DNA from: Balneola sp.
Lineage (GTDB): Bacteria > Bacteroidota > Rhodothermia > Balneolales > Balneolaceae
Direction: 5' to 3'
Length of the DNA: 64,000 nt
Assembly: GCA_003712055.1 (NCBI GenBank)
Contig: RHLJ01000004.1
Location: 310,001-374,000, forward strand
A program made the position numbers and the translations under genes. The notes beneath the pieces are model-generated. The model had not been told where the DNA came from and ran no database searches. It saw only the letters and a program-made list of their open reading frames with translations. Positions 45,350 through 56,484 of this stretch are shown here, piece after piece (within the stretch, counting starts at the first letter, position 1; each line of letters begins with the position of its first letter).

Positions 45350-46576
45350 TCAGGCGGTTAGTTTGCTTGCTGATGCCATCACAAAATCCTTGATAGCTTC
45401 AAAAGCTACCAATGTTTTTTCGATGTGAGCATCGGTATGAGCAGCAGTAGGAATTAGTCGGATGAGTACAATTCCTTTAGGTACCACCGGATAAGCAACA
45501 CCACTAACAAAAACCCCATGTTCTTCACGAAGTTTTCTCATAATCGCGGTACAAAGGTCTGTGCTTCCCTGAGTAAGAACCGGAGTTACGGGGCTCTCAG
45601 AAGGGAGTACATTATACCCTATCTTTTGAAGGCCTTCACGTAGCTTTAAGGTGTTTTTCCAAAGGGTATCTCTCCACTCCGGATTATTCTTAATTAGTTC
45701 AAGGCGCTTTCTTGCTGTAACCACAATAGGTAGCGGTAAAGATTTGGCAAAAATCTGGCTACGGGCGTTTGCTCTAAGGAACTCAATTACTCTTGGCTCA
45801 GAAGCAACAAAAGCACCAATTAATGCAGCAGCTTTTGCAAACGTGCCAAAATAGATATCGATTCCATCCTGACAGCCCAGATGTGTACCAGTACCGGAGC
45901 CATCTTCACCAAGTGTTCCGAAACCATGTGCATCATCAACTAAAAGTCGGAAAGGAACTTCTTTTTTGAGCTCAATGATCTCAGGAAGAATTCCCAAGTC
46001 ACCAGTCATTCCAAATACACCTTCAGTCACAACAAGGATAGAGGAATTATCTTTTTTCTTGGAAGCGGCTCTGTATAACTGCTTTTTGAAGCTTTCAATG
46101 TCATTGTGCTTAAAAACAGACTTGTCTGCCATAGATAGCTGTTTACCATCTACGATACACGCATGACTAAGCTCGTCATAAATAAGAAAGTCGTTGCGGT
46201 CTACGAGTGAATGAATCACACTCATAATACCCTGATAGCCATAGTTTAGAAGCATAGCCTCAGGCTTATGAATGAATTCAGCCAGTTCTTCTTCCAACGC
46301 TTCATGTTCGGTAGAGTTACCCGTCATCAAACGAGCTCCCATAGGGGCGCTAAGGCTATACTTTGCCGTAGCCTCAGTGTCTACCTTTTTAATTTCTTCG
46401 TTACTACCAATTCCAAGGTAATCGTTGATGCTCCAAACGACCATATCCTTGCCGTTGAACTTCATTTCTGGGCCTAATGAACCCTCTAGTCTTGGAAATG
46501 TGTAGTACCCGTATCCTTCAGATGTGAATGGCCCTAAGGGGCTGGGCCGTTCTTCAAGCTTATCAAATAAATCCAT
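45350..46576 (-). CDS. Alpha-oxoamine synthase (serine palmitoyltransferase/cysteate acyltransferase-like)
   Basis: A 408-residue PLP enzyme of the fold-type I alpha-oxoamine synthase group. Motifs: NDYLGIGSNEEIK, LSAPMGARLMTGNSTEHEALEEELAEF, TEGVFGMTGDLGIL, LVDDAHGFGTLGEDG (Asp for the pyridine N), and the PLP lysine K248 in FGTFAKAAALIGAFV. The family condenses an amino acid with an acyl thioester (serine plus palmitoyl-CoA in SPT, cysteate in sulfonolipid pathways, alanine in BioF). The HGTFSK motif is FGTFAK. No biotin genes neighbour it, so lipid synthesis is more likely than BioF. It may work with the ACP operon ~4 kb away. Confidence 0.87.
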   Translation of the reverse strand: MDLFDKLEERPSPLGPFTSEGYGYYTFPRLEGSLGPEMKFNGKDMVVWSINDYLGIGSNEEIKKVDTEATAKYSLSAPMGARLMTGNSTEHEALEEELAEFIHKPEAMLLNYGYQGIMSVIHSLVDRNDFLIYDELSHACIVDGKQLSMADKSVFKHNDIESFKKQLYRAASKKKDNSSILVVTEGVFGMTGDLGILPEIIELKKEVPFRLLVDDAHGFGTLGEDGSGTGTHLGCQDGIDIYFGTFAKAAALIGAFVASEPRVIEFLRANARSQIFAKSLPLPIVVTARKRLELIKNNPEWRDTLWKNTLKLREGLQKIGYNVLPSESPVTPVLTQGSTDLCTAIMRKLREEHGVFVSGVAYPVVPKGIVLIRLIPTAAHTDAHIEKTLVAFEAIKDFVMASASKLTA

Positions 46577-46706
46577 GCAGAAACTAGATTGCTAAGAGAT
46601 TATAAATTAGTTAGTGAGAGTATAGTTTTTGAAAGCTGTAAAAATACGCAAATATCAAATTAACTAAAAAGATGCTTTCCAATCAGTTTCTTCAAACTTT
46701 TTAGCC

Positions 46707-48059
46707 TTAAAAAGTGGGCTTAAGTATGAAAAGCCCGTCTTCAATATCGCTTACAATAACAACATCATTTTTGAAGAAAGGGTAATTACTCCAGGTTCCT
46801 GAGTACCCAACATTGTCATTTTCAGGATGAGTATCAAAATAGCCTAAAGGTATTAATTCGGCATTGGCAAGATTGCCTATTCTAAAGGCTCTTAGCCCTG
46901 ATGTGTAATTCGTCTGATATACGATATTATCTTTGATATATAAGTTATGGTCGATTGACGGAGTATCGTGGGTATAATGCCCAACAAAGGTTGGTGTTTC
47001 CAGATTCCGAACATCCCAAATATACGTCTTGGTATTTCTTCCAAGATTACCCTCATCAATTTCGTCATTCATTAAGAAATAAGTATGATCCTCGGTCAGC
47101 CAGCCTTGATGAGAGTATTGCATTTCACTAGCGCCACTAAATCCTATAGTTGTAGGATTATTTTTATCAGTTACATCACTTATCACTACTGCTCCTTCAG
47201 CTGAACCAAAACATAATTCTTTTCCTGAGTATTCTGAATCTGGCCCATCATAATTGACACATTGTGCATCATGCTTATATCCAATACCTACATTTACAGC
47301 ACTTGGAAGTTCTGTTTCAGGGTCAAAATAGCACCCGGCAAATGATGGATTAAGCGGGGAGTTTATGTCAATGATATGTAATCCTGTTTCCTGCCTTGAA
47401 CCACATATTTCGGATGAAGTTATACCTACCACATAGGCAAAACCTGTTTGCTCATTAATGGCAATATTGTGAGCATTCGCAAAACGATCGTAAAGAGTAT
47501 CGTGAGTGAAGGTTAAGAATTCACCGTCGTAATCTCTCAATTTTGTAAGGTCAAAAACCTGCATTCCATGTGCCTGGCCATCACTTACTACAAATACATG
47601 GTCATCAAAAACTTTCAAATCCCTCCAGGTAGACCCCTCAGCAATATTTTTCGAAGCCTCGGTTGTGCCTATTCCTAAATAACATGCAGGGTATGCTTCA
47701 CTTGGATCAACGACCTTGAACTTTGCATTAATATTCGATTCCTCGAGCTTACCAATTACGACCGGACTATTTGGATCAGAAATATCAACAAAGCTTACCC
47801 CATCTGTTAATCCTACGAGAGCATAGTCTTTATTTGTCTGAGGATCAGTCCATCCCCAAATATCATTCAACCGGGTACCACCTAAATCTTCAGCAGATAA
47901 ATGCGCATACAAATCAAAATTTTCACAGGAATATGTACCGGATGCGGTCCCGTCTTCACAAGGAGAAGAGGCGTCAATTCCTTCATCCGATTTACATCCT
48001 GACACGAAAACCAGGATCATTATTAAAAAGAAAGGGGGGATATAAGAAGAAAAGCGCAT
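46707..48059 (-). CDS. Choice-of-anchor B/LVIVD-repeat lipoprotein
   Basis: A 450-residue lipoprotein (signal FFLIMILVFVSGC) with the choice-of-anchor B layout: LVIVD-type propeller repeats seen as DYALVGLTDGVSFVDISDPNSPVVIGKL, TGLHIIDINSPLNPSFAGCYF, GAVVISDVTDKNNPTTIGFSG, KTYIWDVRNLETPTFVGHYTH and GLRAFRIGNL. Such propellers are anchored at the surface and thought to bind ligands; enzymatic activity is not seen. The ORF is monocistronic; the neighbours do not clarify a role. Confidence 0.9.
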   Translation of the reverse strand: MRFSSYIPPFFLIMILVFVSGCKSDEGIDASSPCEDGTASGTYSCENFDLYAHLSAEDLGGTRLNDIWGWTDPQTNKDYALVGLTDGVSFVDISDPNSPVVIGKLEESNINAKFKVVDPSEAYPACYLGIGTTEASKNIAEGSTWRDLKVFDDHVFVVSDGQAHGMQVFDLTKLRDYDGEFLTFTHDTLYDRFANAHNIAINEQTGFAYVVGITSSEICGSRQETGLHIIDINSPLNPSFAGCYFDPETELPSAVNVGIGYKHDAQCVNYDGPDSEYSGKELCFGSAEGAVVISDVTDKNNPTTIGFSGASEMQYSHQGWLTEDHTYFLMNDEIDEGNLGRNTKTYIWDVRNLETPTFVGHYTHDTPSIDHNLYIKDNIVYQTNYTSGLRAFRIGNLANAELIPLGYFDTHPENDNVGYSGTWSNYPFFKNDVVIVSDIEDGLFILKPTF

Positions 48060-48219
48060 AAACTTAATCGTGATAATAAATTAAACTACGAAAAATAGCT
48101 TTGAATATTTTAATTGCCCGAATTAATAGAATATTAAACTTCAATAAGCACTGTTATTAGGGTGTGAATTTTGAATCTATGTAAATACATTACACACCAA
48201 AGATGATTGGTCAATAATT

Positions 48220-48744
48220 ATGTTACTCTTTCTCAAATACATTGCAAAGTTGCTAAAAGCACTTGCTTCTGAAGCTTCTCCGGGACAAATAGCCGGTGGG
48301 TTAATTCTGGGGATGATTATCGGGCTTACCCCGGTTATGTCTGCTCACAACCTGCTCATCCTGGTTCTCATTATCATTTTAAAAGTAAATATTGGAATGG
48401 CTATTCTAAGCTTCATTGTATTTAGCGGCTTTGCCTATCTGGCCGATCCATTATTTCATGCATTTGGCACCTGGTTATTGGAATTAGAAAGCATGCGCCA
48501 AACCTGGACAATGATGTACGACAACGAATTTTGGGCGATAACAAAATTCTATAATACGGTGGTAATAGGAAGTTTCTTAATCGCATTGATACTTTGTATC
48601 CCGATGTTCCCAATTGCTAAAGTAGGTGTGGTTCAGTATCGCATTCACATTCATGAACGAGTGATGAGGACTAAACTGATGAAGATGCTTAAAGGGACAA
48701 AGCTGTATTCGATCTATCAAACTGTAAGTAGAGTGAGAGGTTAA
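48220..48744 (+). CDS. TIGR03546 family membrane protein
   Basis: A 174-residue protein with three or four membrane helices and the opening MLLFLKYIAKLLKALASEASPGQIAGGLILGMIIGLTP, matching TIGR03546. It is found next to TIGR03545 in many genomes, as here: the second gene starts one base after the stop. Function unknown; the pair may form a membrane complex. Starts with ATG about 30 bases after AATAATT and without a clear ribosome site. Confidence 0.85.
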   Translation: MLLFLKYIAKLLKALASEASPGQIAGGLILGMIIGLTPVMSAHNLLILVLIIILKVNIGMAILSFIVFSGFAYLADPLFHAFGTWLLELESMRQTWTMMYDNEFWAITKFYNTVVIGSFLIALILCIPMFPIAKVGVVQYRIHIHERVMRTKLMKMLKGTKLYSIYQTVSRVRG

Positions 48745-48745
48745 G

Positions 48746-50599
48746 ATGAGGATAAAGGGAGTTATATTTGTTTTAGTTATAGCAGTGCTTTTTTTTGGAG
48801 CAAGTTTTATCAGCCTTGATTCTTATGTGGAATCGCAAGTTGAATACCAGGCTAGTTTGGTGAATGGCGCACTTGTTGAGATTGATGGGTTAGAAGTAAG
48901 CCTGTCTGAGTTGAAAATTCGTTGGGATCGGCTTCAGGTAACGAATCCTGAGAATACCTGGGAGAACTCATTTGAAACCGGTGAAGCTGAACTGGATTTT
49001 CTTTTCTGGCCAACTTTATGGGAAAGGGTGATTATCGAAGATGTGGTATTGAAAGATTTTAAATTCGAAACTGAAAGAGAAACGGATGGATATTTTGAAA
49101 TGCCTGTATCGGAAGAAAGTGGGGAACCTGAAGAACCTGGTTTTATAGCAGAAACTTTTGGTGAGATTTCTTCTGAGGCGAAGGAAAATGCTCAGGCTGA
49201 GTTTTTTGATATCAAAGATGATATCAATACCGACAGTTTACTGGCAGCGGTTGATTTGAAAGCTCCTGACAAAATCGATTCTCTCAGAAACGGGCTTTCT
49301 CAGAACTATGAAAAATGGGATAGTACGTTTTCAAATATCAATATTGATAGTGAAACTGCTCAAATTCAAGAAACCCTGAATGGTATAGACACCAAAAATC
49401 TGAAAAACCCGGAAGAGGCATTAGCAGCCATCAAAAAAGTTGAATTACTCACCAAACAAGTTGATTCACTAAAAACAATGGCTCAGAATATCAGAACGGA
49501 CTTTCAACAAGATTTCGGAAGCGCACGGTTTAGCACTTCGCAAATTGACGAGTGGATCAAAGATGATTTTGATCGGGCAGCAAAAATGGCCAAGCTCCCA
49601 ACTATTGATGCCCAAAACATAGCACAGTCTCTTTTTGGTGAGGAGCTATTCTCAGAGTATGCCGGATATCTAAAGTATGTTTCCATCGCCAGAGAATATG
49701 GGAGCAGGTTCATAGGTGGGGGAGATGAAGAGGAAGAAATTGAACGGTATGAGGGTGTGGATTATAAGTTCAGCGACAAATATGAATGGCCCAGGCTTTG
49801 GATTCAGAATATCGACTTATCCGGAGAAACAAAGTCAGCATTACAGCTTGCGGGTAAAATAACGGATATTAGTACTGATCAAAGTAAATCGGGAAACCCC
49901 ATGCTGTTCGATTTAAGTGGTTCAGATGCAAACTCCAGAAGTATGAAACTTGGCGGAGAGTTCAATTACCTTGAAGACCTTCCCAAAGAAGAAATAGCCT
50001 TTCAATATTCAGGATTCGATTTAAGTGGTACCGCATTGTCACCTTCCGAATTATTACCCTATCCGCTACAGCAAGGTGTGGGTGAGGTTAATGCATCTCT
50101 AAGTATCATTGATAAGCGCATTGACAGTGAAATCCAGTACCTGAATAAGAATCTGGTGTTTGATTTTGGGGCAGAGCGACCAGAGAACAGAGTAAAGCAG
50201 CTCATTCAAGATGCAGTAGCCAATACCAGCGAAATTGACATTACCGCCTTAGTGGATAATATAGAAGGACCGTTGGATGTAAAGATCAGATCCAATATTG
50301 ATAACCTCTTTGTAGATGCATTAAAAGGGAGTATAAGTAACCAGGTAGAGGACGCCCGGAATAAGATTGAGTCGGAAGTAGAATCCAGGATTGGAAATAA
50401 GAAAGAGGAGCTACTTACTTTTAAGGATGAGAAGGAGGCAGAGCTTAGATCACAATATGACCAATTAGAAAATAAGCTAAATGAACAGCTTCAAATCGTA
50501 GAGAAAAAGAAGCAAGAACTTGAAAAGCGAAAGAAAGAAATTGAAGACGAAATCAAGAAGAGAGCAACCGATGCTGTAAGAAGCAGGATTGGGTTTTAG
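48746..50599 (+). CDS. TIGR03545 family protein
   Basis: A 617-residue protein with one N-terminal membrane segment (VIFVLVIAVLFFGASF) and a large extracytoplasmic part. The opening beta-rich section reads like an AsmA/DUF748-type start (GALVEIDGLEVSLSELKIRWDRLQV). The central third is alpha-helical (residues ~130-300), and the last 90 residues form a long Lys/Glu coiled coil (NEQLQIVEKKKQELEKRKKEI). It pairs with the TIGR03546 gene. Its stop overlaps by four bases the end of the converging ACP gene. Role unknown. Confidence 0.85.
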   Translation: MRIKGVIFVLVIAVLFFGASFISLDSYVESQVEYQASLVNGALVEIDGLEVSLSELKIRWDRLQVTNPENTWENSFETGEAELDFLFWPTLWERVIIEDVVLKDFKFETERETDGYFEMPVSEESGEPEEPGFIAETFGEISSEAKENAQAEFFDIKDDINTDSLLAAVDLKAPDKIDSLRNGLSQNYEKWDSTFSNINIDSETAQIQETLNGIDTKNLKNPEEALAAIKKVELLTKQVDSLKTMAQNIRTDFQQDFGSARFSTSQIDEWIKDDFDRAAKMAKLPTIDAQNIAQSLFGEELFSEYAGYLKYVSIAREYGSRFIGGGDEEEEIERYEGVDYKFSDKYEWPRLWIQNIDLSGETKSALQLAGKITDISTDQSKSGNPMLFDLSGSDANSRSMKLGGEFNYLEDLPKEEIAFQYSGFDLSGTALSPSELLPYPLQQGVGEVNASLSIIDKRIDSEIQYLNKNLVFDFGAERPENRVKQLIQDAVANTSEIDITALVDNIEGPLDVKIRSNIDNLFVDALKGSISNQVEDARNKIESEVESRIGNKKEELLTFKDEKEAELRSQYDQLENKLNEQLQIVEKKKQELEKRKKEIEDEIKKRATDAVRSRIGF

Positions 50600-50862
50600 C
50601 CTTCTTCCTTTTCTTTAAGCTTGTTCAGAATAGTCTCAATTACATTTGCCCCTGTAGTCATATTTTGTAACTCTTCATCCGAAATCATGATATCGAATTC
50701 GTTTTCAATATCAATGATGATATCGATTACGTGCATTGAATTGATACCGAGTTCTTCAGTAAGGTTCATGTCCAACGAAAACTTTTCTGGCATTTCCTCT
50801 TCAGGAATATAGCTTTCGATAATCGTTTTTAGTTTTTCTGAAAGTTCTTCTTTTGAAATCAT
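50596..50862 (-). CDS. Acyl carrier protein of the lipid operon
   Basis: An 88-residue ACP. The phosphopantetheine site is S42 in LGINSMHVIDIIID; the usual D-S-L is N-S-M, which suggests a specialised ACP rather than the housekeeping AcpP. The acidic helix II/III surfaces are kept (EFDIMISDEEL). It is the last gene of the six-gene minus-strand operon, two bases after the ketosynthase. It would carry the acyl intermediate made by the ketosynthase, dehydratase and reductase next to it. Confidence 0.9.
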   Translation of the reverse strand: MISKEELSEKLKTIIESYIPEEEMPEKFSLDMNLTEELGINSMHVIDIIIDIENEFDIMISDEELQNMTTGANVIETILNKLKEKEEG

Positions 50863-50864
50863 GT

Positions 50865-52142
50865 CTAAGTAACTTTTTTCAAGATTATGCAGCTATTCGT
50901 ATCACCAAAAGCGAAGCTTGTTTTGGCAATCACATTAATTTCTGTTTCAATAGCTCCATTACTTGGAATTTTTTCCTCAGGAATAAGTTCTTTTATTCTT
51001 GGATGAACAGGGTCAGAGTTAATAGATGGGTGCACAAAATTGTGCTCCATCTGCAAACAGCATGCTACTAATTCAATAGAACCTGCGGCTCCCAATGAAT
51101 GTCCTATCATCGATTTTAAGGAGTTAATGTAAGGAAATTCTGAATCTTTTAGATTTAGCACTTCCTTCCAGTTTGCAACCTCAAGTGGATCAGCCATAGT
51201 CCCTGTTAAGTGCCCGGAAATTAAATCAATTTCCGTTGGCTGAATACCACTCATTTCAATTGTAGTGTTAATACACCGTTGTACTCCTGTAGAATTAGGA
51301 GCAACCATACTTCCCCCCATTCGTTGAGCTCCTGAATTTGCGAAACCACCGATTATTTCTGCATATATATGAGCACCCCGCCTTTTGGCTTCCTCATAAT
51401 CCTCAAGGATCAATACTGCACCTCCGGTGCTTGGGACAAAACCACTGGCATTAGCACTAAGTGGACGCGAAGCTTTTGCAGGTTCATCATTCGAGTTGCG
51501 TACAAGGATTCGCATAGACTCAAAGCCTGCCCACGAACTTGGTCCCTGGCCTTCAGTACTGCCGCAAACCATACGCTTTGCTTTTCCATCTTTGATCCAA
51601 TTATAACCCATGATGACCGATTCGGTACCAGTGCTACATGCCGAAGAATTGGAAGCTACCCAGTTACCAAGTCCCAACATGCCAGATACATAAACCGTTG
51701 GCCCATTATTCATGCGCTGTTCTGTAATTTTGGAACCCAGCTTCCGAACCATTTTATCATCGTAAATCTTATAGAGCTGGCTGATAAGCTCATTATCCAT
51801 AGCGATAGAGCCGGCGCCAATAATAGCCCCGGAATCCCAATCAATATCTTCTTTGTCTGGTAAGGGTAATCCTGCATCCAGCCAGGCGTCTTTGGCAGCA
51901 ATTATCCCATACTTAATGGCTTCGCTAAACAAGAAACGTTGAGAAATTTTATCGATATACTCGTCGATATCAATAGTGTCAAGCTCAGGAATCCCGCTTA
52001 TGGTTGTCTGGAAGTTTAGCTTCTCAAGAAAAGGGTCCTTCCGGATACCTGAAATACCGTTCTTTATAGCATGAAGAAAGTTTGGGATTCCAATGCCATT
52101 TGGGGAAACAACTCCTAAACCTGTAATTACAACTCGATTCAA
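50865..52142 (-). CDS. Beta-ketoacyl-ACP synthase (FabF-like)
   Basis: A 425-residue condensing enzyme with the full KAS II catalytic set: nucleophile C169 (NSSACSTGTES), H311 (LISGHLTGTMADPLE), K343 and H348 (SLKSMIGHSLGAAGSIE). The first histidine context GHLTGT differs from the usual NAHGTST. It elongates acyl-ACP chains by two carbons. It overlaps the dehydratase start by four bases. As a second KAS outside the main fatty-acid operon it probably serves a dedicated lipid or polyketide-type chain. Confidence 0.9.
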   Translation of the reverse strand: MNRVVITGLGVVSPNGIGIPNFLHAIKNGISGIRKDPFLEKLNFQTTISGIPELDTIDIDEYIDKISQRFLFSEAIKYGIIAAKDAWLDAGLPLPDKEDIDWDSGAIIGAGSIAMDNELISQLYKIYDDKMVRKLGSKITEQRMNNGPTVYVSGMLGLGNWVASNSSACSTGTESVIMGYNWIKDGKAKRMVCGSTEGQGPSSWAGFESMRILVRNSNDEPAKASRPLSANASGFVPSTGGAVLILEDYEEAKRRGAHIYAEIIGGFANSGAQRMGGSMVAPNSTGVQRCINTTIEMSGIQPTEIDLISGHLTGTMADPLEVANWKEVLNLKDSEFPYINSLKSMIGHSLGAAGSIELVACCLQMEHNFVHPSINSDPVHPRIKELIPEEKIPSNGAIETEINVIAKTSFAFGDTNSCIILKKVT

Positions 52143-52600
52143 TCTATATTCTCTTTTTCGATGAAGCCCATGCCCGAAAGGGTTGCTCTGCAGACTACTT
52201 CGCCTGCCTTGTTCACCATTTTCACTTCACTTTTAAATTTTCCATGACGAAAATAGCTTTTTTTACCTGAAACTGTAACTGTTTCTCCAGGATAAACCGG
52301 TTTTAGGAAGGTAGCCTCGGAATTGGAGAACCATTGAATGTATTTATTCTTTGCCTCCGGGTCTTCTTTCAGTAAAAAGAAGATGGAATGACAAACCAGG
52401 GCAACCTGAGCACAACACTCTGTTAAAATAACCCCAGGCGTTACTGGATTACCCTCAAAGTGCCCAGCATAAAAATACTCATCTTTCTTGAATGTGTATT
52501 CACCTGTAATGGTATCATCATTCACTTCCAGAATCTTATCTACGAAACGGAAAGGATGTTTTTGAGGGAGTAGAGAAAGTATTCGGTCTTCTAAACTCAT
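52139..52600 (-). CDS. 3-hydroxyacyl-ACP dehydratase (FabZ-like hotdog fold)
   Basis: A 153-residue hotdog dehydratase. The catalytic His47 and Glu61 lie in YAGHFEGNPVTPGVILTE; the acid is Glu as in FabZ, not Asp as in FabA. The opening LPQKHPFRFVDKIL is typical. It removes water from 3-hydroxyacyl-ACP and would act between the ketosynthase and the reductase of the operon. No ketoreductase gene is seen within the operon, so a housekeeping FabG or the SDR may supply that step. Confidence 0.9.
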   Translation of the reverse strand: MSLEDRILSLLPQKHPFRFVDKILEVNDDTITGEYTFKKDEYFYAGHFEGNPVTPGVILTECCAQVALVCHSIFFLLKEDPEAKNKYIQWFSNSEATFLKPVYPGETVTVSGKKSYFRHGKFKSEVKMVNKAGEVVCRATLSGMGFIEKENID

Positions 52601-52603
52601 AAT

Positions 52604-53473
52604 CTATACCAGATTTTCTCCACCGTCCGCAATAATGGTTGTTCCATTAATCCAGTTCGCCTCTTCCTTGCTTAACAGATATACGACATTGGCCACATCT
52701 TCTGGGGTAGTTAATCGCTTATTTGGGTTTCGCTCTTTGCTGAATGTAGCCAGGAAGTCACTACCGGGTATCATCCTAAAGCTTTGTGTTTCGGTTACTC
52801 CAGCTTGAATAAGGTTTGCGGTAATCTTTTTTGGTGCAAGCTCAATAGCCATGTACTTAACCAGGCTCTCTAACACTGTTTTAGCAGCACCAACGGCAGC
52901 ATAGCTTCCCCAAACTTTCTTATCTCCTTCGCTGGTAAGTCCGATTATCCGGCTATTAGTGGAAAAAAGATCACGGTCTAATAATTCTTTTACCCAGGTA
53001 TGCAAACTCAAAGCCATAGAATGAAGGGTAAGATCAAAATCCGTAAGTGATAATGCTCCGGTAGGTGCCCCAGAGTTTTTGAGCTCAAAGAATTTTGAGA
53101 TTTCATCATGTTCAATAGTAGACTCAATATCTTCAATATTCTTAAACAGAGGCTTAAGATTACCCCGGGCTATAGAATGAAGTACCAGATGTACCTGTCC
53201 TTCTTTTTGCTTCAAGTGAGCATCGATTCCCTCAACCAATTCCTTAATTGAAGATGCATCTACCCCATCTTTATTGAACGATAAAAGTTGTACGCCCAAA
53301 GAACGTAGTTCTTCAAACATCTTTTCAGCAGCCTCTGTCTGAGTTTTACGATCTTTGTGAATAATGATAAGGTTTAGTCCGTGTTGGGCTAGTTTTTTTG
53401 CACTAGCAAGACCCATTCCACTAGAACCCCCAAGGATTATTCCCCATTTATTATCGCCTTTAAAATCACTCAT
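52604..53473 (-). CDS. FabI-like short-chain dehydrogenase
   Basis: A 289-residue Rossmann-fold oxidoreductase. The nucleotide motif is GIILGGSSGMGLASAKKLA and the catalytic tyrosine/lysine pair is spaced Y-x6-K (SYAAVGAAKTVLE), the spacing of enoyl-ACP reductases FabI/FabL rather than the Y-x3-K of ketoreductases. C-terminal NGTTIIADGGENLV is standard. An unusually long insertion (QTEAAEKMFEELRSLG ... SIKELVEGID) is present after strand 2. It starts 8 bases inside the end of the acyltransferase gene. Confidence 0.87.
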   Translation of the reverse strand: MSDFKGDNKWGIILGGSSGMGLASAKKLAQHGLNLIIIHKDRKTQTEAAEKMFEELRSLGVQLLSFNKDGVDASSIKELVEGIDAHLKQKEGQVHLVLHSIARGNLKPLFKNIEDIESTIEHDEISKFFELKNSGAPTGALSLTDFDLTLHSMALSLHTWVKELLDRDLFSTNSRIIGLTSEGDKKVWGSYAAVGAAKTVLESLVKYMAIELAPKKITANLIQAGVTETQSFRMIPGSDFLATFSKERNPNKRLTTPEDVANVVYLLSKEEANWINGTTIIADGGENLV

Positions 53474-54602
53474 TCGAAAACTCTTTTATAAAGCACTGTC
53501 GTCTTTTTCGTATCTCGATCTCTTTGTCGTCTACTTTGGGAGAATAAAACATATTCTTGGATGGTGTATTACTTTTAAGAATGGGATTGGTATAAAAAAC
53601 CTTACCACCATTCTTTTTGAAGTTATTATATATCTCAAAAAAGAGAAGTCGTGTAACACCGAGTTTAGCATATTCTGGTTCAACACTTATAAGATATAGA
53701 TCTAGTTCCTCATCACTCATAAAGGCTTTTAGGAGCTGTATCCATCCAAATGGAAATAGTCTTCCTCTATTTTTTTGAAGAGCTTTTGAAAAAGAGGGCA
53801 TTGCTATGCCAAAACCTACAAATTTCCCATCCTTTAACACGTATTTTGTGTATTCCTTTCGGACAAACTTTAAATACTTGCCAACATAATAAGAGATTTG
53901 TTCATTGCTTAGAGGGTGAAAACCATAAAGGTCTTGGTAAGTCTTATTAATTAAGTTAAAAATATCGAACCCATGAACGGCTAATTCTTTTTGGCTATTT
54001 GTGTTGGCAATTTCTAGTCCAAAACGTTCTTTGATAAAGTTGGTTCGTTGATAGACTTTTTCATCAAACTCGAAGGATAAATCTCCGGTTAGTTCTACCC
54101 ATTCCGCAACGGAAGTATATCCAAGTTTTTTAAGGTGCTTTGGGTAGTACTCGTAATTATAAGTAGTAGCCATTGTAGCCATAGAGTCAAAACCTTCGAC
54201 TAACATTCCCTGGGGATCCATATCACTTAACCCTAGCGGTCCATGTACTCCAATAATGCCTTGTTCTTGTGCCCAGTTTTCAACGGTGTTAATTAGGGCT
54301 CTACTTACCTCTTCATCATCTATGAAATCAATCCAGCCAAATCGTGCTAGTTTTTTATCCTCAACTTCAGCGTTAATCAAAATACCGGCAATCCGTCCAA
54401 CAATCTTCTCTCCCTTATAAGCCAGCCAGTAAGTAGCCGAGGCGTGCTTGAATGCTGGATTCTTCTTTTTGGAGAGTGTTTCTTTTTCATCCATTAAAAT
54501 GGGGGGTACCCAATACGGACTGTCTTTGTAAAGTTCGAAGGGGAAGTGAATGAACTTTTTTAACTCTGAGGATGTAGAAACCGCCTTAACAGAAACACTC
54601 AT
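53466..54602 (-). CDS. YghO/bacterial ceramide synthase-like acyltransferase (GNAT fold)
   Basis: A 378-residue GNAT-fold protein of the PTHR41368/YghO group, which includes the bacterial ceramide synthase of Caulobacter. Recognisable parts: FELYKDSPYWVPPILMDEKETLSKKKNPAFKH opening, GRIAGILINAEVED, and VHGPLGLSDMDPQGMLVEGFD, the marker segment of the family, with a second GNAT half (KYVLKDGKFVGFGIAMPSFSKAL ... LISVEPEYAKLGVTRLLFFEIY). Known members N-acylate a long-chain base using acyl-CoA or acyl-ACP. The position inside an ACP/ketosynthase/glycosyltransferase operon supports N-acyl lipid synthesis, but the substrate is inferred. Confidence 0.75.
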   Translation of the reverse strand: MSVSVKAVSTSSELKKFIHFPFELYKDSPYWVPPILMDEKETLSKKKNPAFKHASATYWLAYKGEKIVGRIAGILINAEVEDKKLARFGWIDFIDDEEVSRALINTVENWAQEQGIIGVHGPLGLSDMDPQGMLVEGFDSMATMATTYNYEYYPKHLKKLGYTSVAEWVELTGDLSFEFDEKVYQRTNFIKERFGLEIANTNSQKELAVHGFDIFNLINKTYQDLYGFHPLSNEQISYYVGKYLKFVRKEYTKYVLKDGKFVGFGIAMPSFSKALQKNRGRLFPFGWIQLLKAFMSDEELDLYLISVEPEYAKLGVTRLLFFEIYNNFKKNGGKVFYTNPILKSNTPSKNMFYSPKVDDKEIEIRKRRQCFIKEFSNE

Positions 54603-54605
54603 ATA

Positions 54606-55745
54606 CTATTTGTAGTCGATTTTATAACCTTCACCCTGCCAACTTACTGAACGATTTATTACAAATGAAATGGGTAGGAAAAGAAAGATAAAAAACAGGT
54701 AGAAATAGATAACGGGGAGATATCGAAGAAACCGTTTTTCTCGAAACACTATTTTCTCAGTAATAAAGACAGAAGATTCTGCTACCAATTTTAATAGTAA
54801 AGCTCCAGTTGCAGCTACAGGGTTAATGAATAATCCCAGAATAATAGCAATCACAAAAAGAAAGCCAAATCCAAATACTACACTTAGCCCAATCGAATAT
54901 TCCCAACTTTGTTCATAGCCTCCCCGAATCCATCTGCGCTGCTGACTCAATAATTGTTGGAAAGTTTCTAGCGGAAACATCCGAACCGTTGTTTCCGGGT
55001 TGTTATGAGCCAGAGCTTTGTAGCCGGCATTAGCAGACATCATAAAAATAGCAAGGTCTTCGGCTACATTAAACTCTGCCTTTTCAAGCCCTCCGCTTTC
55101 TTCATAAATAGATCGTCTAATGGCCATATTGGGCCCAACGCAGATGAAATCCATCCCATACCCTGCTGCTCCAAAGGCAAAGGGAATGGTGTAACCCCAA
55201 GACATTTTTTCGAGGGTAGATACCAGGTTATTCTCTTTAATGGTCATCATACCGGCAATAGTCCCGGTTTTTTTACTTGTCCCAGTGAGCATTTTTTTTA
55301 GCCAAAGAGGATGTACTTCAGCATCTGCATCTGTAATAAATAACCATTCACCTGTAGCATGTTTTGCGGCAAAAGAAATCCCTCTAGCCTTGGCTTTCAA
55401 ATGGGTATCATAATCTTTTGTATTTAGCGTCTGCACATGATCATGACCCTCAATCGCTGTTTCTATTACTTTAGCGGTATTATCTGTTGACTGGTCGTCA
55501 ACAATAATGATCTGGAGCTTTTCCTTGGGATAATCCAGATTAATCAATGAGTTAATACAGGTAGCAAAAACGGCCTCCTCATTTTTCCCGGACACCAATA
55601 CGGATACCGTTGGCCATACTTCAGGTTCGGTACGTTTTCTGTCTCTTAAGTGAAGAATAATTTGACCTAAAGAAGCAACGAATACCAGAACAAGTAAATA
55701 TAATAGACCGCTAATGGTTAAGAATAGTCCGAGTGCGTCTGCCAT
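54606..55745 (-). CDS. Glycosyltransferase family 2, membrane-bound
   Basis: A 379-residue processive-type GT2. After an N-terminal membrane helix (FLTISGLLYLLVLVFVASLGQ) comes the GT-A core: VLVSGKNEEAVFATCINSL, IIVDDQSTDN, FITDADAEVHPLW (DxD-like), and the Q-x-x-R-W-type QQRRWIRGGYE. Three to four C-terminal helices follow. It transfers sugar from a nucleotide sugar to a lipid or polymer acceptor at the inner face of the membrane. It is the first gene of the operon and may glycosylate the lipid product of the following genes. Confidence 0.9.
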   Translation of the reverse strand: MADALGLFLTISGLLYLLVLVFVASLGQIILHLRDRKRTEPEVWPTVSVLVSGKNEEAVFATCINSLINLDYPKEKLQIIIVDDQSTDNTAKVIETAIEGHDHVQTLNTKDYDTHLKAKARGISFAAKHATGEWLFITDADAEVHPLWLKKMLTGTSKKTGTIAGMMTIKENNLVSTLEKMSWGYTIPFAFGAAGYGMDFICVGPNMAIRRSIYEESGGLEKAEFNVAEDLAIFMMSANAGYKALAHNNPETTVRMFPLETFQQLLSQQRRWIRGGYEQSWEYSIGLSVVFGFGFLFVIAIILGLFINPVAATGALLLKLVAESSVFITEKIVFREKRFLRYLPVIYFYLFFIFLFLPISFVINRSVSWQGEGYKIDYK

Positions 55746-55884: not shown

Positions 55885-56484
55885 ATGAAAAAACTATTTT
55901 CGAAATGGTGGGTATATCCACTTCTGCTAGTATTGATTTACCTCATCGCTTTTCCCTTTTTCTTCAGAAACCCTGAATACCCGCTTTTTTTTGAAGTCTA
56001 CTCCAGATTTAACGGCACCTTAGAGCATCAGGCTATCAATGGGAATAAAGATCAACTAGTTCAAAACTTTGAGTCGGTAACTATTGGGAGCGAGGCTCCT
56101 GATTTCATCTTAAACACCCTAAATGGAGAAGAAGTAAGCTTATCAAGCCTCGAAGGGAAAAAAGTATTTCTCACTTTTTGGGCTTCATGATGTCCTACTT
56201 GTCGTAAAGAAAACAAAGCTTTGGCAGCATTTTATGAGGAATACAGCGGGCAAGAGTTTGAGATTCTTGGAGTTTCTTTGGATCGAAGCAAAACAAACTG
56301 GGAGAAAGCAATTGAAAAAGATGGTATAACCTGGCTTCAGGTTTCCGACCTTATGGGTGTCGATTCTCCTGTAGCTACTCAATATGGAGTTTATAGTACT
56401 CCAACTACATTTTTAATCGATAGCTCAGGGGTTATACTTGGTAAAGATATAGAAGCAGAAAATCTAGAAGCGTTATTGAGATAA
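55885..56484 (+). pseudogene. TlpA-like thioredoxin-fold protein interrupted by in-frame TGA at the active site
   Basis: The frame from ATG 55885 to 56484 would give about 199 residues: an N-terminal membrane anchor (YPLLLVLIYLIAFPFFF), then a TlpA/redoxin domain (IGSEAPDFILNTLNGEEVSLSSLEGKKVFLTFWAS, then TGA, then CPTCRKENKALAAFYEEY ... TPTTFLIDSSGVILG). The TGA is at 56188-56190, exactly where relatives have the Trp of W-C-x-x-C (WASWCPTC), so it is a TGG-to-TGA change. Both halves keep the frame and the redox Cys pair is intact. It may be a recent nonsense mutation, a base-call error, or read through; Sec is unlikely since both Cys codons remain. Confidence 0.85.

Follow-up and report, generated by a model that had tools for sequence, protein, structure and literature searches.

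A candidate accessory operon for ceramide-type N-acylation and glycosylation with its own fatty-acid cassette in a Balneola genome

We analysed a 64,000-nucleotide stretch of a Balneola sp. genome (GCA_003712055.1, contig RHLJ01000004.1, positions 310,001 to 374,000; hereafter the window, to which all positions refer). Six tightly packed genes on its minus strand encode, in order of transcription, a membrane glycosyltransferase (GT), an N-acyltransferase (NAT) related to bacterial ceramide synthases, a short-chain dehydrogenase/reductase (SDR), a dehydratase (DH), a ketosynthase (KS) and an acyl carrier protein (ACP). This operon is probably an accessory module for ceramide-type N-acylation and glycosylation, and a second ceramide-type synthase would receive its N-acyl chain from a private type II fatty-acid cassette. 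The substrates and product are predicted from the gene families, the catalytic residues, the presence of the genes as one unit, the clade formed by the N-acyltransferases, and the linkage of related loci to genes resembling serine palmitoyltransferase (SPT) and CerR.

Six genes form one accessory unit

A packed minus-strand run at 50596-55745 had been proposed from the sequence alone, and open reading frames (ORFs) for all six genes are present there, with gaps of 2-3 bases and overlaps of 4-8 bases. By ORF coordinates, 3 bases separate the GT gene (54606-55745) from the NAT gene (53466-54602), which overlaps the SDR gene (52604-53473) by 8 bases; a further gap of 3 bases precedes the DH gene (52139-52600), which overlaps the KS gene (50865-52142, TTG start) by 4 bases, and the ACP gene (50596-50862) follows after 2 bases. 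GC content is 0.39-0.41 throughout the operon, giving no compositional sign of transfer, and no tRNA was found in the window.

In the other two genomes of the genus that we compared (G001 and G002), the TIGR03545-family and thioredoxin-like genes that flank the operon in the window adjoin each other. No operon genes were found at E <= 1e-8 in the flank regions examined in these genomes, and the operon-type KS is absent from both in a search at E <= 1e-70, the threshold used for all KS counts in the family, class, phylum, G540-order and G808-family searches below. Relative to both congeners, the window differs by about 5.2 kb of DNA that contains the six genes and no others. Because the flanking genes are adjacent in the two congeners without them, the six genes are one accessory unit. 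The operon KS is present in 4/92 genomes of the window's family, in the same four among the 244 genomes of its class, and in 37/394 genomes of a phylum sample.

The cassette resembles fatty-acid synthesis enzymes

Pfam and NCBIfam agree with the families named in the sequence-only reading, namely a glycosyltransferase, a YghO-like acyltransferase, a Y-x6-K reductase, a FabZ-type dehydratase, a ketosynthase and an ACP. The matches are, respectively, Glycos_transf_2 with Glyco_transf_21, a weak GNAT, adh_short_C2, FabA-like, the N- and C-terminal ketoacyl-synt domains, and PP-binding. None of the six proteins has a listed NCBIfam match at or above its curated cut-off; they are thus relatives of type II fatty-acid synthesis (FAS II) enzymes rather than simple copies of them.

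The SDR is FabL-like and probably an enoyl-ACP reductase (ER). FabL is its best NCBIfam model (153.5 bits, under the cut-off of 328), its best PDB match is the enoyl-ACP reductase [NADPH] 3oic, and its Y-x6-K motif reads YAAVGAAK; the motif and the FabL match disfavour a FabG-type ketoreductase. The DH is a FabZ-like 3-hydroxyacyl-ACP dehydratase, with 57.3 bits to Pfam FabA and 69-79 bits to FabZ models, under their cut-offs. The KS is FabF-related and of an accessory clade: it retains Cys169, His311, Lys343 and His348, scores 276 bits against NCBIfam fabF (equivalog cut-off 494), and has 32% identity to the two other FabF-like KSs of the genome, from which it is parted by 100/100 branches. 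The ACP (PP-binding, 29.4 bits) carries Ser42, invariant in nine ACPs aligned, and the NSM remarked on in the sequence-only reading is part of INSM at this phosphopantetheine serine. Because INS occurs in 7/9 of the aligned ACPs, the window's included, it is a mark of the class and not a defect. No fatty acyl-ACP synthetase was found among the operon proteins (ORF list, Pfam, NCBIfam), and neither Pfam nor NCBIfam identified any of the six as a type III polyketide synthase (PKS), a chain-length factor or a KASIII.

The N-acyltransferases linked to this ketosynthase form a clade

The NAT is a tandem-GNAT protein homologous over its full length to Escherichia coli YghO (29% identity over 365 aa, 149 bits). 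Its sole match in Pfam is a weak one to Acetyltransf_1, and sequence searches of solved structures returned none up to E 1. An AlphaFold model (pLDDT 91.1, pTM 0.90) has glucosamine N-acetyltransferase as its nearest PDB fold, followed by other tandem GNATs, at 12-15% identity. Proteins 39-47% identical to the NAT occur in Neomarinimicrobiota, Cloacimonadota, Ignavibacteria, Spirochaetes, Bacteroidales and others (80 loci kept), and some of them adjoin an SPT-type alpha-oxoamine synthase (AOS).

In a tree of 49 of the 94 NAT rows, in which no row was flagged as long, the eight KS-linked NATs form one clade (100/99). An earlier tree with five KS-linked rows gave the same clade at 98/94, with a long-branch warning for E. 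coli YghO and the window NAT, and a FastTree of 79 rows placed all 38 KS-linked NATs in one clade without intruders (0.93). E. coli YghO groups at 100/100 with the SPT-linked YghO homologue (bCerS) encoded on another contig, C7, of the same genome. The window NAT lies across that branch, and no clade uniting it with E. coli YghO was found. The earlier assignment of the acyltransferase to the BcerS/YghO family stands as homology, and the protein belongs to a separate, KS-linked subclade.

Two further arrangements were seen among the NATs. Another branch in the window's family (L117, L118 and L119, from G025, G007 and G015) has no adjoining KS and groups with Chryseobacterium/Empedobacter proteins. 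In a Bacteroidales metagenome-assembled genome (L010:7587-11119), an SPT-type AOS is followed by two tandem NATs of different branches.

The N-acyltransferase-ketosynthase-ACP core recurs with SPT-like and CerR-like genes

We read the genes around 92 KS loci, one of them that of the window, in two sets. The first 54 comprise all 37 phylum matches, the 17 matches of a further search (L009, 15 other regions, and G569, taken to be the same place as G329 because the coordinates are identical) and G080. The second set consists of 38 new loci from 45 KS places in the family of G808, in which 40/295 genomes have the KS; of the other seven places, four had already been read, two are second KSs in L240 and L241, and L236, on a contig of 3.5 kb, was not tallied. 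Genes were labelled by their best BLAST match, uncurated and scoring more than 38 or 42 bits, among the proteins of the window, L157, L158 and L212-L214. The type III PKS label was tested with Pfam in L157 alone and the DarH label with NCBIfam in L158 alone, the L160 protein being 70% identical to that of L158.

By these labels the first set holds 41 type III PKS-like loci, most of which also have a methyltransferase and an FAD oxidoreductase, 8 with a NAT, 2 of DarH/KASIII type and 3 others, and the second holds 28 with a NAT and an SPT-like gene, 2 with a NAT on cut contigs, 4 with a type III PKS and 4 others. The NAT-KS-ACP core is thus present in 38/92 loci (8/54, the window included, and 30/38). 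An SPT-like gene lies within a few genes, mostly along with one for a CerR-like reductase, in 31 of these 38: the 28 of the second set, and L212, L213 and L214. Genes co-directional with the core in the 30 new NAT loci encode an SPT in 26, a DH in 24, a CerR in 20, an SDR in 19, an ACP in 28 and a phosphopantetheinyl transferase (PPTase) in 14, and the most complete run reads SPT-CerR-NAT-SDR-DH-KS-ACP, joined by a PPTase in some loci (L212, L259, L264). The CerR label goes back to the L212 protein, which is 28% identical (83 bits) to an epimerase-family protein encoded at the E. coli SPT locus. Three linked AOSs compared with the Bacteroidetes SPT model score 603, 594 and 582 bits, just under its cut-off of 640. 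At the position of a lysine found in the cysteate-type enzyme SulA, linked AOSs carry alanine in 28/28 from the new loci and in all three of L212-L214, so that the SulA-type lysine occurs in 0/31.

NAT-KS-ACP also occurs without an SPT in the window, L115, L116 and L009, and each of these has a GT21-like GT; the L009 contig ends about 0.6 kb past its GT. No SPT-like gene without a NAT was seen among the KS neighbourhoods listed. Because NAT-KS-ACP occurs without an SPT and the converse was not seen, the cassette follows the NAT.

Conservation of the gene order in related genomes had been suggested as a check, and it is found for the NAT-KS-ACP core, which occurs both within the window's family and in G540's order; this order lies outside the window's class, because the class search gave only the four family members. 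The recurrence of the gene set in related genomes, together with the clade of KS-linked NATs, indicates that its association exceeds chance.

Type III PKS loci have KSs that group in a clade of their own (100/98; 100/99 in a second tree of 47 of the 92 KS rows and two FabF rows). For the NAT-linked KSs, the first KS tree requires two changes and does not reject a single clade (p-AU 0.468).

Other arrangements of the cassette were also recorded. The type III PKS clusters (L147-L157, L159, L161-L166 and others) carry an FAD oxidoreductase, a methyltransferase, a chalcone-synthase-type PKS, DH, KS, ACP and PPTase, with a FabL-like SDR in some. In L158 (6776-15296) and L160, an SDR-DH-KS-ACP-PPTase cassette lies opposite genes for a DarH acyltransferase, a KASIII-like protein and ABC-type proteins. 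L240 and L241 (G953, G1006) have a tandem KS pair within otherwise complete SPT-CerR-NAT-SDR-DH-KS-KS-ACP runs, and a KS of a ceramide-type operon in G964 (C164:20898-22175) has one in-frame TAG.

The glycosyltransferase resembles ceramide glucosyltransferase

The GT is of the GT2/GT21 membrane type and exceeds the Pfam cut-off for Glyco_transf_21 (51.9 bits, cut-off 21.7), with a higher score for Glycos_transf_2 (81.8). In the four operon GTs, D83D84, D139xD141, E229D230 and a QQRRW ending at W272 are invariant, matching D, DxD, ED and QxxRW, which we take to be the motif set of GT21 ceramide glucosyltransferases. A profile of the four sequences has ceramide glucosyltransferase as its best PDB match, over positions 8-369 of 373 (E 4e-15); the other 16 PDB matches are confined to positions 24-164.

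Neighbouring genes and a sphingolipid-type locus elsewhere in the genome

The sequence-only reading had listed, together with the operon, a pyridoxal phosphate-dependent AOS about 4 kb away. The gene exists (45350-46576, minus strand), outside the six-gene unit. It encodes a core, cysteate acyltransferase-type (CFAT/SulA) enzyme: CFAT and SulA are its closest solved relatives (462 bits to CFAT 28eh and 447 bits to SulA 7u7h, against 238 bits to SPT 3a2b), and it reaches only 287 of the 640 bits of the NCBIfam SPT cut-off. It has Lys278 at the SulA lysine position, where SPTs carry alanine, a difference that PMC9304779 gives as the distinguishing mark of SulA. A near-full-length copy is present in 85/92 family genomes, its own included; the other seven have fragments only (G030, G086, G104, G111), a 52% copy (G017) or paralogue-level matches (G010, G089). 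It lies on a different contig from the operon in G011 and about 150 kb from it in G026, and both G001 and G002 retain it beside the empty operon site. The cysteate-type match, Lys278, the contrast between 85/92 and 4/92 genomes, and its presence in congeners without the operon rule this AOS out as a member of the operon's pathway.

Contig C7 of the same genome (L120:4266-10085 in G000) carries an epimerase-family CerR-like gene, two genes that look like GT4 glycosyltransferases, an SPT-like gene and the bCerS gene. Its SPT-like AOS scores 495 bits against the SPT model (cut-off 640), and its bCerS is 35% identical to E. coli YghO (225 bits). A YghO homologue was found in 58/58 relatives searched, the window's own genome included. 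The C7 SPT-like enzyme is more likely than the neighbouring AOS to supply the operon's amine.

The genes flanking the operon are both on the plus strand and outside the unit. The left one (48746-50599) belongs to TIGR03545 (NCBIfam 288.8 bits, cut-off 173). The right one (55885-56484), thioredoxin/TlpA-like by appearance, has an in-frame TGA at its active-site motif, where the G002 counterpart is open.

Proposed function and alternatives

In the pathway that we favour, the KS and ACP, with the FabZ-like DH and the FabL-like ER, would elongate or tailor an acyl chain on the private ACP, with the ketoreductase and malonyl transferase presumably borrowed from the main fatty-acid pathway. The tandem-GNAT NAT would then transfer the chain, probably from acyl-ACP, to the amine of a long-chain base. 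The C7 SPT-like enzyme would provide this base, most likely as 3-ketosphinganine or sphinganine. The GT21-like membrane GT would add a sugar to the resulting ceramide-like lipid; the order of these steps is itself a prediction. The oxidation state of the N-acyl chain may depend on the complement of DH and ER genes, which ranges from KS-ACP alone through the addition of DH to that of both, although we offer this as a guess. The chains expected are 3-oxygenated in genomes with KS and ACP only and saturated in those that also have DH and ER, provided that housekeeping enzymes do not hide the difference. The sequence-only reading likewise had a chain built on its own ACP, joined to an amine and glycosylated. 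SPT/CerR linkage in relatives and the ceramide-glucosyltransferase-like GT are in keeping with that scheme; the AOS 4 kb away is not supported as a part of it.

Several observations weigh against this assignment. Neither an SPT nor a CerR is encoded in the window operon, and C7 of the same genome already provides an SPT-linked bCerS, so that linkage leaves the amine acceptor untied to the operon here. The window NAT sits on a long branch, across a 100/100 branch from E. coli YghO. The GT21-like GT is found in only 4/38 NAT loci, three of those without it (L176, L242 and L273) being cut by contig ends, and the single window GT matches ceramide glucosyltransferase weakly (33 bits), below 6yv7 and 6p61. 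A single clade of NAT-linked KSs is rejected (p 1.5e-07) when L239, which is classed among the other loci and nests among NAT-linked KS rows, is counted as non-NAT; without L239, the NAT-linked KSs form one side of a weak branch (67/46). The operon KS is rare, occurring in four genomes of its own family and in no others of its class. Finally, because 45/92 KS loci place the same cassette beside type III PKSs, the cassette alone does not mean ceramide.

The cassette might instead feed an SPT, and so the long-chain base, as in Rhodobacteria, where a specialized ACP supplies SPT (PMC9386255). The SPT gene is in the same run in 26/30 loci of the family of G808, which would fit this role. However, the window, L115, L116 and L009 combine cassette, NAT and GT without an SPT (with the L009 contig ending soon past the GT), no listed KS locus has an SPT-like gene without a NAT, and acyl-CoA is reported as the substrate of Bacteroidetes Spts (PMC11324152); we consider an SPT-feeding role unlikely. 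It is rather unlikely, too, that the NAT acylates some other amine, such as an amino sugar, an amino acid, or capnine made by the cysteate-type AOS for a sulfonolipid. The CFAT/SulA-type gene 4 kb away and the glucosamine N-acetyltransferase fold nearest to the NAT model would fit this, but the AOS occurs throughout the family and the operon KS in 4/92 of its genomes, the AOSs beside KS-linked NATs carry the SPT-type alanine in 31/31 cases and the SulA-type lysine in none, and a fold match at 12-15% identity says little about the acceptor.

The patchy distribution of the operon, and the occurrence of its cassette beside type III PKSs in 45/92 KS loci and in DarH-type clusters in two, could also reflect a secondary-metabolite cluster in which the KS makes a polyketide or pigment chain and amide formation and glycosylation are tailoring steps. 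We judge this improbable: the six proteins include no type III PKS, chain-length factor or KASIII by Pfam and NCBIfam, related NAT loci hold SPT and CerR-like genes, and the KSs of type III PKS loci are a separate clade (100/98). The koreenceine pathway was considered as a model and set aside, its Pseudomonas type II PKS cluster with pairs of KS and chain-length factor (PMC6498172) being a different set of genes. Least of all do we expect a redundant housekeeping-type fatty-acid module that merely adjoins an acyltransferase. DH, SDR, KS and ACP are all FAS II relatives, as such a module would require, but the KS shares just 32% identity with the two other FabF-like KSs of the genome and stands apart from them in the tree, and NAT-KS-ACP recurs in the window's family and the order of G540, with NATs that form a clade. 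An accessory module for ceramide-type N-acylation and glycosylation remains the reading that we favour.

Discussion

Known routes to bacterial ceramides offer partial parallels to the window operon. With the Caulobacter pathway (Spt, bCerS and CerR) it shares a YghO-homologous N-acyltransferase, and relatives of the operon add SPT-like and CerR-like genes. In the E. coli BL21 locus, yghO is followed by genes for a fatty acyl-AMP ligase, an epimerase, an ACP and spt; an ACP is encoded there as here, and the KS-DH-ER-ACP cassette stands in place of the BL21 acyl ligase and ACP. The operon differs from both systems in that its NAT belongs to another clade, it lacks SPT and CerR, and it includes a GT21-like GT. 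bCerS is described as a cytoplasmic N-acyltransferase and CerR as periplasmic (PMC11087976), and the bacterial ceramide N-acyltransferase is presumed to be an acyl-CoA enzyme (PMC9386255).

Two further systems give sphingolipid synthesis a dedicated ACP or chain-building enzyme. The rhodobacterial AcpR/AasR system likewise has a private ACP for it, but there a fatty acyl-ACP synthetase loads AcpR, which supplies SPT (PMC9386255), whereas the window operon has no synthetase and its type of KS follows the NAT. PfSgaAB of Pseudomonas fluorescens MYb115 likewise ties a dedicated chain-building enzyme to sphingolipid synthesis (PMC12134224), but there an iterative type I PKS is combined with an AOS, in contrast to the discrete type II proteins and N-acyltransferase of the operon. 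CFAT and SulA, which the neighbouring AOS matches and with the latter of which it shares the SulA lysine (PMC9304779, PMC11211663), belong to sulfonolipid synthesis, and that AOS is not part of the operon. The type III PKS clusters of Bacteroidota contain homologous SDR (where present), DH, KS and ACP genes in the same order as the operon, but they end in a chalcone-synthase-type PKS with a methyltransferase and an FAD oxidoreductase, and their KS is in a separate clade.

The literature that we searched, mainly open-access and judged by titles, openings of abstracts and passages, yielded no description of a ceramide synthase with its own KS-ACP or FAS cassette. In relatives, the core lies with ceramide pathway genes, which points to an undescribed version of bacterial ceramide synthesis. 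We see an even chance that the operon represents a third wiring, in which a private type II cassette makes the N-acyl chain to order and its ACP passes the chain to a dedicated clade of ceramide synthases. The cassette would then be a portable chain builder that Bacteroidota combine with DarH-type systems and type III PKSs as well as with ceramide synthases, and the DH and ER genes present would set the oxidation state of the chain.

An alpha-oxoamine synthase near such an operon need not be an SPT. The passages that we consulted are silent on how the N-acyl chain is chosen, and a ceramide-synthase-like clade linked to its own KS and ACP makes the question of the acyl donor testable with purified proteins. 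For Bacteroidota, the operon also provides a sequence marker of the capacity to make sphingolipids or glycosphingolipids.

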